Positions 29,658-37,051 of a stretch of DNA of 64,000 nucleotides are shown one piece after another. Both the position numbers and the translations under genes were made by a program. Within the stretch, counting starts at the first letter, position 1. Every line of letters begins with the position of its first letter. The notes below the pieces were generated by a model that searched no databases, was not told where the DNA came from, and saw nothing but the letters and a program-made list of their open reading frames with translations. Source of the stretch: Fibrobacter sp. UWH6 (GTDB taxonomy: Bacteria > Fibrobacterota > Fibrobacteria > Fibrobacterales > Fibrobacteraceae); contig NZ_FRAX01000001.1 of assembly GCF_900142465.1 (NCBI RefSeq), positions 62,001 to 126,000 on the forward strand, in the 5' to 3' direction.

Positions 29658-30380
29658 ATGATCGAATATTCTTTTGCGGCAGAGATTGCCGAATCTGACA
29701 AGGAAGTTGTTCTTAATTCGAGAATTTATACGGACTGGCTTGCGGCTTCCGAAAAGAAGTTCAAGGTGACCAAGGTCCATTTTGCTTCTGTGGATTTTCT
29801 GAGAAAGGGCCGTCAACCTTTATTTATAAAGCTGGAGGCTACTGCTTTCTTGCCGGATGGACGTCCGGTTCACGGGATCGTACTGGTGCGCGGTAATGCA
29901 GTGGGCGTTCTGATTGTGCTCCGCTGCGAAGGTAAGCCTTACCTGCTGTTGGTTCGTCAGCCCCGTTTTGCAATTTCGGAACAGGATTCTCTTGAAATTC
30001 CTGCAGGCATTCTGGACTGGACTGGGGATTACCGCAAGGTGGCCCTGTCTGAACTGGAAGAAGAAGCCCAGATCAAGGCAGACGATTCTGAACTGATTGA
30101 CTTGATGGACTTCTGGTATAAGGGCAAGAGCGAAGGCTTTGCGGCCAGTTGCGGACTTCTGGACGAACGTATCCGCCTGTATGCCATTGAACGCGAGGTC
30201 ACTCCCGAACAGCTGAAGGCCATGGACGGAAAGGACCAGCAGTATACCGAAGAAATCGAATGGATCCGTACTGAAGTTCTGCCTTACGAAGAGGCCGCCC
30301 ATCAATTTATCGACGGTAAGAACTTTATCGCCATGTTCCTGTACGAACGTTGGCTGAAATCTCAGGGCCGAGAGGTTTAG
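29658..30380 (+). CDS. Nudix hydrolase with degenerate Nudix box (ADP-sugar pyrophosphatase-like)
   Basis: A 240-residue protein. The central Nudix fold is clear: VGVLIVLRCEGKPYLLLVRQPRFA, then EIPAGILDW and the helix ALSELEEEAQI. Against the canonical G-x5-E-x7-R-E-U-x-E-E-x-G-U it keeps the metal-binding E-x2-EE glutamates but has Gly for the first Glu, Ser for Arg and Gln for the last Gly. The preceding EIPAG resembles ADP-ribose/ADP-sugar pyrophosphatases, where EIPAG-like sequence precedes the box. The long inserted segment (LMDFWYKGKSEGFAASCGLLDERIRLYAIE) resembles the substrate region of plant-type ADP-sugar hydrolases. Activity may be altered. Likely co-transcribed with the lipoprotein upstream. 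Confidence 0.82.
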   Translation: MIEYSFAAEIAESDKEVVLNSRIYTDWLAASEKKFKVTKVHFASVDFLRKGRQPLFIKLEATAFLPDGRPVHGIVLVRGNAVGVLIVLRCEGKPYLLLVRQPRFAISEQDSLEIPAGILDWTGDYRKVALSELEEEAQIKADDSELIDLMDFWYKGKSEGFAASCGLLDERIRLYAIEREVTPEQLKAMDGKDQQYTEEIEWIRTEVLPYEEAAHQFIDGKNFIAMFLYERWLKSQGREV

Positions 30381-30393
30381 CGTATAGCGTAAA

Positions 30394-30442
30394 GCGGAAA
30401 GGTTAAAGAAATTTCCTTTAACCTTTAACCTTTAACCTTTAA
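30394..30442. repeat. intergenic repeat: inverted GGTTAAAG arms plus four tandem CCTTTAA units
   Basis: GCGGAAAGGTTAAAG, a short AT spacer, then CCTTTAA four times (30415-30421, 30422-30428, 30429-30435, 30436-30442). GGTTAAAG and CTTTAACC are inverted and form a hairpin. The last unit supplies the stop codon of the small membrane-protein gene on the minus strand. A similar segment lies inside truB at 36404-36433. Confidence 0.75.
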
Positions 30443-32496: not shown

Positions 32497-32530
32497 TCGA
32501 AGTTAGCGTAGATCGCTGAAGGTCAAAGGG

Positions 32531-32551
32531 GCCTGCACAAGGGGTGTAGGC
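32531..32551 (+). promoter_or_regulatory. hairpin in the nusA-infB spacer
   Basis: GCCTGCAC AAGGG GTGTAGGC forms an 8-bp stem (one G-U pair) between nusA and infB, without a T run. It could be a processing site or partial attenuator that adjusts infB relative to nusA. Confidence 0.3.
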
Positions 32552-32589
32552 TTGAAAGAATTGAAAAAAGGAATATGGAAAGCTAATTC

Positions 32590-35500
32590 ATGGCAATTGA
32601 AGATCAAATTAAACCTACAGATTGGGCTGAATCCCACGGCGTCAAGGTTGACGTTGTTATGAAACTGCTTCGCGACGCGGGCGTAACTGTCCGTACTCAC
32701 ATGTCCAAGGTTGCCGCCGCAGACTATGAGAAGATCGAAGCCGCTGCCGAAGCTGAAAAGCAGAAGGCCGAAGCTCGTAACAAGAATTTGAAGAAGAATA
32801 CGGCTGACCATGCTCCTAGCGCAAGCGCTGCCAAGAAGCCCGCTGCTCCCGCCGCTGGTGGTCGTACTCTGAAGGCAACTCTCATTAAGGGTGCCAAGGT
32901 CACCATCAAGAAGGGCGCTGCTGCTCCTGCCGCTGCGGTTTCTAAGCCCGCTGCTGCCCCTGTTGCCGAAGCTCCCAAGGCTGAGGTTAAACCTGTGGCT
33001 CCTGCCGCACCTGCTGCAGCTAAGCCTGCTGCCCCTGCCGCTCCCGCAGCTCCCAAGGTCGAAGCCAAGCCGGTCGAAGCTCCCAAGGCCGAAGTTAAGC
33101 CTGCTGCTCCTGCCGCTTCCGCTGCTCCTAAGGTTGAAGCCAAGCCGGTCGAAGCTCCCAAGGCTGAAGTTAAGCCTGTGGCTCCTGCCGCTGTTAAGCC
33201 TGCTGCACCGGCTGCCGCTCCCAAGGCTGAGGCTCCCGCTGCCAAGCCGGCTCCTGTCGCTCCCGCAGCTGCCAAGCCTGCTGCAGAAGCTCCCGCCATG
33301 GTTACTCCGGGTATGGAACTGAAGCAGCCTCCTATGAAGGCTCAGGTCTTTAAACCCGATGCAGCAATTCTTGCTCGTATCGAAAAGTCTCGCCAGATGG
33401 CTCAGCAGAACCGCGGCGGACATCGTGGCCCCGGCGGTCCCCGTGGAAACGGCAATGCCCAGGGTTACACTGGAACTTTTGGCCGCCTGAACAACAATGG
33501 CGGTCAGGACAACCGCAATGGCGGTAACCGTCGTCCGGGCCAGGGTGGCCCCGGTGGTGATCGCAATAACAACAATGGCGGTCGTTCCTTTACTGGCCGC
33601 ACCAGCGGCTTTACCGGCTCCTCTATGCAGGATGCCTTCAATGCAAGCAACAACCAGGCCTTTGGTGGCCAGGGTGGCTTTGGCGGTCAGAACCAGAATG
33701 GCAAGGGTGGAAAGCCCGGTCAGCAGAATGGTCGCCATGGTCAGAACGACAAGAACCGTCGTGGAAACAACGGTAAGGATCGCGACCAGCAGAAGGAACA
33801 GCAGCAGGAAGCCGTACGTCAGAACGTTTCTCGCGTGATGGCTGACCTTTCCAAGAAGCCTGTCAAGAAGGTTTACCGTAAGGAAAAGGCCGAAGGCGAA
33901 GTTTCTGAAGAAAAGAAGATTCTTAAGACTTCTGACTTCATCACCGTTGGCGAACTTGCCGGCCTGATGGAACAGATGCCTGCTCGCGTTATCGCAAAGT
34001 GCATGGAAATGGGCATGATGGTGACCATCAACGCTCGCCTTGACTTTGAAACCATCCAGCTCCTGGCCGACGAATTCGGTTTCGAAGCCCAGCTGATGGA
34101 AGAATACGAAGAAGAAGCACTGGGTGTTGAAGAAGAATCCACCGAAAATCTGCAGCCCCGCCATCCGGTGGTGACTGTGATGGGTCACGTTGACCACGGT
34201 AAGACTTCTCTCCTCGACTGGATCCGTAAGACTCACGTGGTCTCCGGCGAATCCGGCGGCATTACCCAGCACATCGGTGCTTACGAAGTTACCACCAGCC
34301 AGGGCAAGGTTACCTTCCTTGATACCCCGGGTCACGAAGCCTTCAGTGCTATGCGTGCTCGCGGTTCTCAGGTGACCGACGTTATCGTGCTGGTTGTGGC
34401 TGCTGACTCTATGGTCATGCCCCAGACTGTTGAATCTATCGAACTTGCAAAGCGCGAAAAGGTTCCCATGGTCGTGGCCATTACCAAGATCGACCTTCCC
34501 ACTGCTAACCCCGACAAGATTCGTGCCCAGCTGGCCGAACGCGGCGTAGAAGTGGAACAGTGGGGTGGTACTACTAGCTGTATCGAAGTCTCTGCCCGTA
34601 CCGGTCAGGGTATGGATCAGCTCCTCGAAACTCTGGCTCTTGAAGCCGAAGTTCTTGAACTTAAGGCTAACCCGGATGCTCACGCTCGCGGTGCTGTGGT
34701 TGAATCCAAGCTTGACGTGGGTAAGGGTTCCATGGCTACGATCCTCGTGCAGAACGGTACTCTCCATGTGGGTGACCCGTTTGTCTGCGGTATCTACGCT
34801 GGTCGTGTCCGTGCTATGTTCAACGAACGTGGCGAACAGCTCAAGGAAGTTCCGCCTTCTGCACCTTGCCAGGTGCTTGGCTTTGACGGTACCCCTCAGG
34901 CTGGTGATGACCTTATCGTTGTGGAAGACGAAAAGGCCGCACGAGAAATTGCTTCCAAGCGTCGTATGGCCGCCCGTGAACGCGACCTCCGCGCCCGTAA
35001 GACCGTTTCTCTTGAAAATACGTTTAACGAAAAGAAGGATGGTAAGCTCTCTGAACTCAACCTCATCGTCAAGGCTGACGTGGGTGGTTCTGCCGAAGCT
35101 CTTGCCGCATCCCTCGAAAAGCTTACCAATAAGGAAGTCCGCGTGAACATCATCCGTAAGGGTGTTGGTACTATCACGGAATCCGATATCTTGCTTGCTA
35201 CTACCGCTCAGGCTATCATCGTTTCCTTCCACTTGATGCCGTCTCTCGCTGTCCGCGAAATGGCCCAGAAGGAAGGCATCGAAATCCGCAACTACCGCGT
35301 GATTTACGACTGTATCGAAGATATTACCAACGCTGTGGAAGGCTTGCTCAAGCCCACCATGCGCGAAGAACTCAGCGGCGAAGCCGAAATTCGCCAGGTC
35401 TTCAAGGTTCCCAAGGTCGGTCTCATCGCCGGCTGTATGGTTACCGATGGTTCCGTGGACCGCGAAAGCCATGTCCGCGTATACCGCAATGGTGTAGAAC

Positions 35501-35724
35501 TGGGTACTACCGTGGTTCAGTCCCTCAAGCGTCTTAAGGACGATGTCAAGTCCGTTGCTCGTGGCTTCGAATGCGGTATCGGTCTTAAGGGTTACGACGA
35601 TATTCGTGAAGGCGATAGCTTGATCTTCTTCAAGGAAGTCTCCGTTGCACGTACCTTGAAGGATGTGGCCCGCGAAGAAGCCGAAGAAAAAGCCAAGAAG
35701 CAGGCTGAATCTTCCGAAGCGTAA
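32590..35724 (+). CDS. infB: translation initiation factor IF-2
   Basis: A 1044-residue IF-2. After an IF2_N domain (MKLLRDAGVTVRTHMSKV) there is a repetitive Ala/Pro/Lys region (about 70-245, repeats of EAKPVEAPKAEVKPAAPA) and a Gly/Asn/Arg-rich stretch (270-400). A second IF2_N follows at about 440-495. The GTPase has G1 GHVDHGKT (532-539), switch II DTPGHEAF (from about 578) and G4 ITKIDL, in which the usual Asn is Thr. The C-terminal domains that bind fMet-tRNA follow (EGLLKPTMREELSGEAEIRQVFKV). IF-2 brings initiator tRNA to the 30S subunit. ATG 32590 has AAAGGAATATGG upstream. The Pro/Ala repeats vary between strains, as expected. Confidence 0.97.
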   Translation: MAIEDQIKPTDWAESHGVKVDVVMKLLRDAGVTVRTHMSKVAAADYEKIEAAAEAEKQKAEARNKNLKKNTADHAPSASAAKKPAAPAAGGRTLKATLIKGAKVTIKKGAAAPAAAVSKPAAAPVAEAPKAEVKPVAPAAPAAAKPAAPAAPAAPKVEAKPVEAPKAEVKPAAPAASAAPKVEAKPVEAPKAEVKPVAPAAVKPAAPAAAPKAEAPAAKPAPVAPAAAKPAAEAPAMVTPGMELKQPPMKAQVFKPDAAILARIEKSRQMAQQNRGGHRGPGGPRGNGNAQGYTGTFGRLNNNGGQDNRNGGNRRPGQGGPGGDRNNNNGGRSFTGRTSGFTGSSMQDAFNASNNQAFGGQGGFGGQNQNGKGGKPGQQNGRHGQNDKNRRGNNGKDRDQQKEQQQEAVRQNVSRVMADLSKKPVKKVYRKEKAEGEVSEEKKILKTSDFITVGELAGLMEQMPARVIAKCMEMGMMVTINARLDFETIQLLADEFGFEAQLMEEYEEEALGVEEESTENLQPRHPVVTVMGHVDHGKTSLLDWIRKTHVVSGESGGITQHIGAYEVTTSQGKVTFLDTPGHEAFSAMRARGSQVTDVIVLVVAADSMVMPQTVESIELAKREKVPMVVAITKIDLPTANPDKIRAQLAERGVEVEQWGGTTSCIEVSARTGQGMDQLLETLALEAEVLELKANPDAHARGAVVESKLDVGKGSMATILVQNGTLHVGDPFVCGIYAGRVRAMFNERGEQLKEVPPSAPCQVLGFDGTPQAGDDLIVVEDEKAAREIASKRRMAARERDLRARKTVSLENTFNEKKDGKLSELNLIVKADVGGSAEALAASLEKLTNKEVRVNIIRKGVGTITESDILLATTAQAIIVSFHLMPSLAVREMAQKEGIEIRNYRVIYDCIEDITNAVEGLLKPTMREELSGEAEIRQVFKVPKVGLIAGCMVTDGSVDRESHVRVYRNGVELGTTVVQSLKRLKDDVKSVARGFECGIGLKGYDDIREGDSLIFFKEVSVARTLKDVAREEAEEKAKKQAESSEA

Positions 35725-35746
35725 GCGATTACCATAAGGAATATAA

Positions 35747-36100
35747 ATGAGTCGTAGAACCGACAGATTAGGCGAACAGTTCCGTGAGGAAATCTCCAAG
35801 CTCTTGCAGAAGGGCTTGAAGGATCCTCGCGTCAGTACGCTTTCTAGCATTACCCGTGTAACGATCACCGATGACCTGAGCTATGCAAAGATCATGGTAT
35901 CTGTCATGGGTTCCGATAAGGAAAAGCGCGATTCCTTGATCGGCCTCAACAATTCCGCTGGCTTTATCCGCGGCGTTTTGGGCAAGGCCCTCAAGATTCG
36001 CAAGATTCCCGAATTGAACTTTGTGCTAGACGAGAACCTGGAACACGCCATGCATATCGAAAGCATTCTTGCCGACTTGAAGCAGAAAGGGGAACTCTAA
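35747..36100 (+). CDS. rbfA: 30S ribosome-binding factor RbfA
   Basis: A 117-residue KH-like protein of usual length. Conserved features: RRTDRLGEQFREEISKLLQKGLKDPRV near the start, ITRVTITDDLSYAKIMVSVMG, then GFIRGVLGKALKIRKIPELNFVLDENLEHAMHIESIL. It binds 16S rRNA during late 30S assembly. ATG 35747 follows AAGGAAT after 5 bases; truB starts immediately after its stop codon, so translation is coupled. Confidence 0.96.
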   Translation: MSRRTDRLGEQFREEISKLLQKGLKDPRVSTLSSITRVTITDDLSYAKIMVSVMGSDKEKRDSLIGLNNSAGFIRGVLGKALKIRKIPELNFVLDENLEHAMHIESILADLKQKGEL

Positions 36101-37051
36101 TTGTCCAATTCTGGCTTCGTCTTATTAGACAAGATTGCTGGTGAAACTTCTTTTAAGGCCCTTTTCCCTCTGAAAAGGGTCTTTTCTACGAAGCGTGTTG
36201 GTCATGCCGGTACGTTAGACCTACGTGCCTCCGGCCTGATTATTGCCGCTACGGGTCGCGTCACCCGTCTGCTGCCTTTTGTAGAGGCCAAGGACAAGTG
36301 TTACAGCTTTAGACTCCATCTGGGTTACCAGACTGACACCTTGGAATGGGACGGCGAAGTGGTTATGAGCGATGAGTGCCGAGCCGTGAGTAGTGAGTCA
36401 AATGCGGAAAGTTTAAAGGTTAAAGAGATTTCCGTTGCGGATCTTGAGGCGGTATTGCCCCAGTTTACCGGCGATATCGAACAGATTCCGCCTAAGTATT
36501 GTGCGGTAAAAATTAACGGTGTCCGCGCCAGCGACCTGATGGAACGTGGCCGAGATATCGAACTGAAGCCCCGCAAGATTAACATCAGCTCCCTGAAGGT
36601 GCTGGGTGCTGTTGCCAACGATGCCACTGAAGGATGCTCTGGCAAGGCTTTTGCCACTTTCGACTTGATTTGTGAATGCTCCAAGGGTACTTATATCCGT
36701 GCCCTGGGCCGTGATATTGCCCGTGCCCTTGGAACTTTTGGCTGCGTTTCCCATATCCGACGTCATCGTATTGGCGAGGTTACCTTGGATAAGGCTGTCC
36801 GTGGCGATGATCTGACCCGCGAACACTTGCTGCCTGTGGACCAGGTGCTTGATTTCCCCGTGGTCCGTCTTGACGACGCGCAGCTGGCGGTCATCCGTCA
36901 GGGAAATTATCTGCCCTGGAAAACTCCCATTGAAGGTGTGGATGCCGAAGGCAACGTCTTTGTAGCCAACATGCAAGGCGAAGTCCTCAGTTTCTGTCAC
37001 TATGAACCTGGCCGCATCAGGCCCAAGATCTACCTAGCCGAAGATGAATAA
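36101..37051 (+). CDS. truB: tRNA pseudouridine(55) synthase TruB, with a repeat-derived insertion
   Basis: A 316-residue enzyme that makes pseudouridine 55 in the tRNA T-loop. The TTG start directly follows the rbfA stop, with AAAGGGGAA upstream. The catalytic aspartate is D40 in GHAGTLDLRASG; other TruB markers are GYQTDTLEWDGEVV, FTGDIEQIPPKYCAVKINGVRASDLMERG and SKGTYIRALGRDIARALG. Between DGEVV and DLEAVL sits an additional stretch of about 20 residues (SDECRAVSSESNAESLKVKE) whose DNA (36366-36433) matches an intergenic repeat elsewhere in the window. Its insertion keeps the frame, so function is probably kept. It overlaps ribF by 8 bases. Confidence 0.93.
   Translation: MSNSGFVLLDKIAGETSFKALFPLKRVFSTKRVGHAGTLDLRASGLIIAATGRVTRLLPFVEAKDKCYSFRLHLGYQTDTLEWDGEVVMSDECRAVSSESNAESLKVKEISVADLEAVLPQFTGDIEQIPPKYCAVKINGVRASDLMERGRDIELKPRKINISSLKVLGAVANDATEGCSGKAFATFDLICECSKGTYIRALGRDIARALGTFGCVSHIRRHRIGEVTLDKAVRGDDLTREHLLPVDQVLDFPVVRLDDAQLAVIRQGNYLPWKTPIEGVDAEGNVFVANMQGEVLSFCHYEPGRIRPKIYLAEDE
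36366..36433 (+). repeat. intergenic-type repeat fragment inside truB
   Basis: The DNA is made of GAGCGATGAGTGCCGAGC / GTGAGTAGTGAGT followed by GCGGAAAGTTTAAAG GTTAAAGAGATTTCC (36404-36433). The latter matches 30394-30415 (GCGGAAAG GTTAAAGAAATTTCC) except for one additional heptamer and one substitution. The repeat lies between conserved TruB blocks. Confidence 0.7.

Follow-up and report, generated by a model that had tools for sequence, protein, structure and literature searches.

Intergenic repeats inside bacterial genes

The STRR sequences of cyanobacteria are intergenic direct repeats of heptamers. Intergenic heptamer direct repeats with the unit TAACTGA have also been described in Beggiatoaceae (available part of PMC4679880). 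Within protein-coding genes of Rickettsia, RPEs occur in frame (Ogata 2000, 2002, cited in PMC10969869 and PMC3733652), and RPE-1 lies inside truB of R. conorii, as cited in PMC3733652. The RPEs form palindromic families of about 150 bp, and a 2024 review considered RPE-like protein change possible outside Rickettsia (both from the accessible sections of PMC10969869). Intragenic GTAG/CGTC REPs are short palindromes located in genes, many of which encode nucleic-acid enzymes. These REPs are recorded in truB of S. maltophilia, E. litoralis, and S. alaskensis, different REPs occupy about one recB site in two Xanthomonas species, and flexible linkers or loops have been suggested as neutral REP sites (PMC3733652, as far as its text is available). 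Fibrobacter is not named in the available portion of the main text of PMC3733652. For the comparison made here, a CGTC REP was defined by a CGTC tag and a stem of 8–9 bp. Among the REP-bearing species, E. litoralis and S. alaskensis are presumably an Erythrobacter and a Sphingopyxis. Among the open-licence papers listed, judged by titles and abstract starts, none reports repeat capture in Fibrobacter genes.

The locus described here lies in a 64,000-nucleotide stretch of Fibrobacter sp. UWH6 (the window; contig C1, positions 62001–126000, of the 3.92-Mb, 50-contig genome G000). It is best read as a fragment of a dispersed heptamer repeat captured in a tolerant loop of TruB, an event that recurs in the genus and needs no function of the insert. 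The probability assigned to this reading is roughly 0.82.

The truB gene and its variable loop

According to the ORF list, truB occupies positions 36101–37051 on the forward strand, starts with TTG, and encodes a tRNA pseudouridine(55) synthase of 316 aa. The full-length match to NCBIfam TIGR00431 (201.4 bits, cut-off 151.45), the Pfam TruB_N match, and the conserved GxLD motif place the protein in the TruB family, and the best PDB match of its fold is E. coli TruB (1k8w; E = 3.0e-28). The GTLD motif with D40, which we take to be the catalytic residue of the family, is invariant across 40 aligned TruB rows, indicating that the capture leaves the conserved motif intact. Whole-protein identity to MAGs named Fibrobacter is 81–88%. 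The neighbors of truB resemble infB, rbfA, and ribF, names that are assumed from their sequences and positions. The rbfA-like gene directly 5′ of truB (35747–36100, forward strand) provides a local control of constant length: its anchor was located in 39 of the 59 loci, and in each of these it is followed by 75 residues. A 1121-aa open frame antisense to the infB-like gene (32503–35868, reverse strand) is probably a by-product of the codon make-up of that gene.

Between the conserved blocks DTLEWDG and FTGDIEQIPP, residues 86–121 (36356–36463, forward strand) form a loop that is hypervariable in length over 59 loci. In the AlphaFold2 model of the window TruB (40 aligned sequences; mean pLDDT 89.5, pTM 0.85), residues 95–105 (36383–36415, forward strand) are the only stretch of at least three residues with pLDDT below 50 and are predicted to be disordered, flanked by a strand (87–90) and a helix (112–122). 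A homolog with a 69-residue loop (L106) gave a mean pLDDT of 85.1; there, only the loop (99–137) falls below 50 and the core is still modeled with confidence. The loop is probably surface-exposed, and in sequence it lies apart from the catalytic motif.

An in-frame heptamer array

Within this loop, residues 89–111 are encoded in frame by a degenerate heptamer array at 36366–36433 (forward strand), as defined by lag-7 identity and BLAST matches in the same genome. Its units read TGAGCGA, TGAGTGC, CGAGCCG, TGAGTAG, TGAGTCA, AATGCGG, AAAGTTT, AAAGGTT, AAAGAGA, and a terminal TTTCC. Lag-7 identity over the 68 bp is 31 of 61 positions, a value that none of 5000 dinucleotide shuffles reached, and the maximum over lags 4–12 gave 0.0002 against such shuffles; the longest lag-7 run taken alone is weaker (p = 0.024). 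The periodicity extends across all 68 bp, and the low-complexity and heptamer stretches that the initial annotation had distinguished thus form one degenerate array.

Positions 36404–36433 read GCGGAAAG-TTTAAAG-GTTAAAGAGATTTCC, and an intergenic copy at 30394–30416 reads GCGGAAAG-GTTAAAGAAATTTCC. The two differ by one heptamer unit and one substitution, as first annotated, but the intergenic copy ends at 30416 and not at 30415. Allowing up to two mismatches, GTTAAAGAGATTTCC has two matches within the window against 0.16 expected, and only one of 100 shuffles had as many. In the whole genome, GTTAAAGARATTTC occurs in two places, truB and the 30394 element, and the backward-read control gave none.

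Residues 86–96 (EVVMSDECRAV) still resemble EVVEQD-SRAV of the relatives when the peptides are compared by eye, so the securely repeat-derived part is about 36386–36433 (forward strand). This part has no recognizable likeness in the nearest relatives, again judged by eye from the peptides, and its left edge is approximate. The DNA alignment of the window loop with those of L010–L012, L087, L016, and L018 is loose inside the loop. The original estimate of about 20 additional residues needs to be revised: the window loop exceeds the 22-residue loops of Fibrobacter by 14 residues, whereas the repeat DNA spans about 22 codons because older loop codons were also replaced.

Heptamer repeats elsewhere in the genome

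The intergenic heptamer element of the window was delimited by TRF at 30378–30442 (forward strand; C1 92378–92442). It comprises ACGCTAT, AAAGCGG, and AAAGGTT units as well as TTTAACC units arrayed in inverted orientation, and it starts within the 3′ end of the upstream ORF. By eye, similar composites were seen repeatedly behind genes, and such elements may function as terminators or alongside them.

Further genomic copies of the repeat are present. With up to one mismatch, GGTTAAAGGTTAAAGG has 32 matches in the genome, some of them overlapping, and none in the backward-read control. A BLAST search with the 68 bp returned 39 other matches at E ≤ 1, and the 22 contexts inspected by eye are mostly behind genes or near hairpins, with some inverted pairs. 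The two best matches lie on other contigs (E = 1.9e-5 and 6.5e-5) and both keep the TTTAAAG unit; the 30394 copy (E = 0.036) is without it and is therefore not the closest relative of the truB array. A single recent insertion from 30394 was rejected in view of the better matches on other contigs and the many captures in relatives described below, and that copy is at most a candidate donor.

TRF found 55 period-7 arrays in 400 kb of C1: 29 between genes, 6 at gene edges, and 20 within ORFs, truB accounting for 2 of the last group. For arrays of other periods in the same stretch, the counts are 342 within ORFs, 70 between genes, and 5 at edges. The coding fraction of this stretch is 81.5% by simple gene calls. 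The 7-bp periodicity and the location of 35 of 55 arrays between genes or at gene edges are those of a dispersed heptamer repeat, bearing out the initial view that a normally non-coding repeat lies in frame within truB. That this copy is a rare coding one holds in part: of the seven AAAGGTT-unit arrays in the 400 kb, six lie outside ORFs and only that of truB lies inside one, but repeat-derived loops turned out to be common among the relatives. A search of the window loop against pooled intergenic DNA of three genomes (1.12 Mb) gave no match at E ≤ 0.001.

Segment 30385–30445 of the intergenic family copy forms a hairpin when folded (z = −2.68, matched in stability by 7 of 200 shuffles), and this would be compatible with inserts being kept for an effect at the RNA level, for example through a hairpin in the mRNA of the truB operon. 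The coding inserts do not fold in this way. That of the window folds no better than its shuffles (z = +1.03) and is thus not a palindromic element, and the values for stretches spanning the loops of two relatives are +0.74 (L019) and +1.13 (L022). Neither is the window insert a REP, since CGTC is absent from 36366–36433 and GAGTAGTG, which holds GTAG, forms no stable stem-loop. A hairpin role is unsupported for these three coding copies and loops differ freely among close relatives, which makes retention for an RNA-level effect highly improbable.

The loop across Fibrobacter

Of the 59 truB loci compared, 36 represent G000 and 35 relatives and 23 come from other records, partly of the same genomes; many are metagenome-assembled, and together they hold 49 distinct loop DNAs. 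Loops were located by requiring an open frame, and no stop is listed within any truB match. Among the 36 genus relatives searched, G008 has no truB match, and its infB match stops at a contig end. The loop sits at the same position in all 59 loci, with an upstream spacing of 53 aa throughout and a downstream spacing of 193–206, and its length ranges from 22 to 110 residues. Outside Fibrobacter, the 36 loci parsed (of 39) have short TruB loops of 21–32 residues, as measured with a loose anchor, and the longest value, 32, includes extra anchor residues.

The initial annotation held that conservation of the extra residues in all relatives, with no further genomic copies of the motif, would count against a capture. 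The residues are not conserved, since the window peptide is found in none of the other 48 distinct loops and shares no 6-residue stretch with any of them, and the further copies exist, so the result that would speak against a capture was not obtained.

A loop was scored as repeat-positive if it passed at least one of three tests, namely a GTCAT-type motif, heptamer periodicity at p ≤ 0.01, or a BLAST match (E ≤ 0.001) in the intergenic DNA of three genomes. None of the nine short loops (22–23 aa) was positive, compared with 29 of the 40 longer ones, and the reversed-sequence BLAST control gave 0/49. The GTCAT-type motif was found in 24 loops, heptamer periodicity in 8, and an intergenic match in 15; the window loop passes the periodicity test only. 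Several unrelated repeat families thus occupy the same loop, and the single capture first envisaged gives way to many.

The 11 negative long loops include L010–L012 (near relatives of the window), L015, L087, and L088, with L087 and L088 borderline in heptamer periodicity (0.024 and 0.012). They are decayed inserts or the result of non-repeat growth, and they count against the captured-repeat reading. These loops would agree with a fast-evolving low-complexity linker whose likeness to intergenic repeats is coincidental, and a coincidence may indeed apply to some of them. For most loops it is contradicted by the controls, namely the empty reversed search and the absence of any shuffle matching the periodicity of the window array. 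In addition, 28–46 bp of the truB loops in G004 and G020 are 93–95% identical to intergenic sequence of the respective genome. Coincidence is the least probable explanation considered. All five further genomes also hold relatives of their own loop inserts elsewhere (inserts joined as one query).

The GTCAT element reads GTCATTGC...GCAATC around a variable center that is often an inverted repeat. It is present in 37 of 41 genus genomes (0 or 1 in the backward-read control), with only three copies in this genome. The string CGTCATT was read in several of the GTCAT elements (L026, L030, and L091). Genes of the Y1_Tnp family, with RAYT and IS200-type members pooled, were found in 13 of the 41 genomes, with three matches in this genome; G031 has both Y1_Tnp and GTCAT elements. 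A link of the repeats to Y1 transposases was not found; several GTCAT-rich genomes (G008, G013, and G024) are without Y1_Tnp.

Turnover and orientation of loop inserts

A tree of the 49 truB cores, with the loop excluded, requires at least 15 changes among four loop classes (short; GTCAT; heptamer or other repeat; long without assigned repeat). The sisters L018 and L095 (support 100/100) are 96.0% identical in core DNA and have loops of 22 and 64 aa, respectively. Likewise, L035 and L044 (94.9% identical) have loops of 23 and 70 aa, and L043 and L092 (97.1% identical) have loops of 55 and 29 aa. Turnover is not always fast and inserts can persist, given that L013 and L014 have one 55-residue loop in common at 83% core DNA identity. 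One palindrome is translated in two frames, as CHCERSEAIS in L019 and VIASEAKQS in L026, which indicates separate captures. As judged by eye, L034 retains CGVPSVTR, the tail of an element that is whole in L102, and L041 retains the stub CCHP; these remnants are in-frame losses. Taken together, these comparisons show that different intergenic repeats have entered and altered the same loop again and again, with the reading frame intact at each locus found and the core still conserved.

In the 49 distinct truB loops, GTCAT elements are in forward orientation in 25 cases and in reverse orientation in one. Stop codons are not supported as the cause of this bias, because the reverse frames of 23 intergenic GTCAT elements are open about as often as the forward frames (40/69 vs. 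32/69). Between codirectional genes, 16 intergenic GTCAT elements have the same orientation and 11 the opposite one, a distribution that does not account for the bias either. Plain neutrality does not account for the 25:1 ratio, a count that shared ancestry inflates. The ratio and the identical position in all loci would be expected if the loop were a preferred target, supplied with repeats in one orientation by an activity that moves them or through some property of the truB DNA or mRNA, and truB also carries REPs in three other species and RPE-1 in R. conorii (available part of PMC3733652). However, heptamers, GTCAT elements, and other unrelated repeats share the one loop, which a single transposase would hardly bring about. 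Y1_Tnp genes have the patchy occurrence described above, being absent from GTCAT-rich genomes, the orientation counts are not independent, and other genes take repeats too. Preferential targeting is accordingly regarded as quite unlikely.

Repeats in other genes

Capture is not the rarity that it first appeared to be. In MnmE, two GTPase-domain loops vary among the 23 of 30 loci that could be parsed (loop A, 13–44 aa; loop B, 11–34 aa), and 13 of these 23 are repeat-positive, with none in the reversed BLAST control. The GTCAT test used for mnmE asked only for the five letters themselves, and L223, among the 13 positives, looks doubtful on inspection. Such peptides can also be seen by eye in four of the seven loci that were not parsed. 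In the present genome, mnmE (MnmE by NCBIfam/Pfam), which lies outside the window, contains an in-frame VILNPEGVKDPV from GTCATCCTG...GGATC at C1:174480–174510 (L156:14480–14510).

A comparison of three genomes yielded 160 reciprocal best pairs (260 proteins) with 74 internal indels of at least 8 aa. At E ≤ 0.001, 12 of the indels have a match in the intergenic DNA of the same genome, with none in the reversed control (15 vs. 3 at E ≤ 0.01). They fall in nine of the 260 proteins. TruB accounts for two of these and ambiguous N-terminal starts for three; the other four have an internal insert: priA of G020 (L193:17038–19323), a SNF2-type helicase gene of G004 (L182:5244–9320), a HAD hydrolase gene of G020 (L204:11996–13036), and the gene of a 565-aa, weakly CehA/McbA-like protein of G004 (L172:12520–14214). 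An rlmD-like gene (L177:68–1813) was rejected as a case of internal insertion, as its match lies in an N-terminal extension that may reflect a wrong start. Separately, a 562-aa ORF of G004 (G004:C1:267770–269458) has GTCAT elements at three places (residues 62, 333, and 348) and looks by eye like a type I restriction specificity subunit.

A broader proposal would make the TruB loop and the two MnmE loops favored sites of repeat insertion throughout bacteria, with truB serving as a natural recorder of repeat mobility through fast, genus-wide, in-frame loop-swapping. It draws on the repeats in truB of Rickettsia, Stenotrophomonas, Erythrobacter, and Sphingopyxis (species in PMC3733652), at whatever site of the protein, and on those throughout Fibrobacter with their bias to one orientation. 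This generalization is considered unlikely.

Origin and significance of the inserts

A tolerant loop combined with selection for the reading frame is the likeliest cause of the pattern. Under the preferred reading, repeats would reach truB in the way they spread through intergenic DNA, heptamers perhaps by slippage and recombination and GTCAT elements by template switching or some mobilizing activity. Arrivals that are out of frame or bear stops would be purged because truB is worth keeping, the surviving inserts would be neutral or nearly so, and later deletions would shorten them to in-frame remnants. Most likely, repeats arrive everywhere, and exposed loops of robust enzymes collect those that keep frame and fold.

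As far as the sequences indicate, non-coding repeats would thus have become part of a conserved enzyme time and again in one bacterial genus, each time at the same place. This provides dozens of natural experiments on what a loop can hold, and it makes the choice between neutral leftovers and targeted captures testable. Annotators should also be aware that peptides of the VILSE... or CHCERSEAIS... type in Fibrobacter proteins can be repeat-derived.

Comparison with known systems

In-frame repeats in genes and the intergenic heptamer class are already known. The new elements are the Fibrobacter lineage, the coding heptamer arrays, the unrelated families sharing one loop, and the genus-wide exchange. 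As described in the available parts of the sources, RPEs are comparable to the window insert in that an intergenic-type repeat lies in frame within a conserved gene. They differ in being palindromic, in belonging to an intracellular lineage, and in being spread over unrelated genes, whereas heptamers and unrelated short repeats are found here in one loop of a gut genus. REPs are likewise short repeats within genes, truB included (available part of PMC3733652), but the window insert lacks a fold above shuffles, and the Fibrobacter loop combines many families with turnover in one genus. Finally, the Beggiatoaceae heptamers (available part of PMC4679880) and the STRR sequences share with the present arrays the 7-bp tandem units, the mostly intergenic location, and the mixture of families; their units are different, and those of Fibrobacter are degenerate and include a coding copy in a conserved enzyme.
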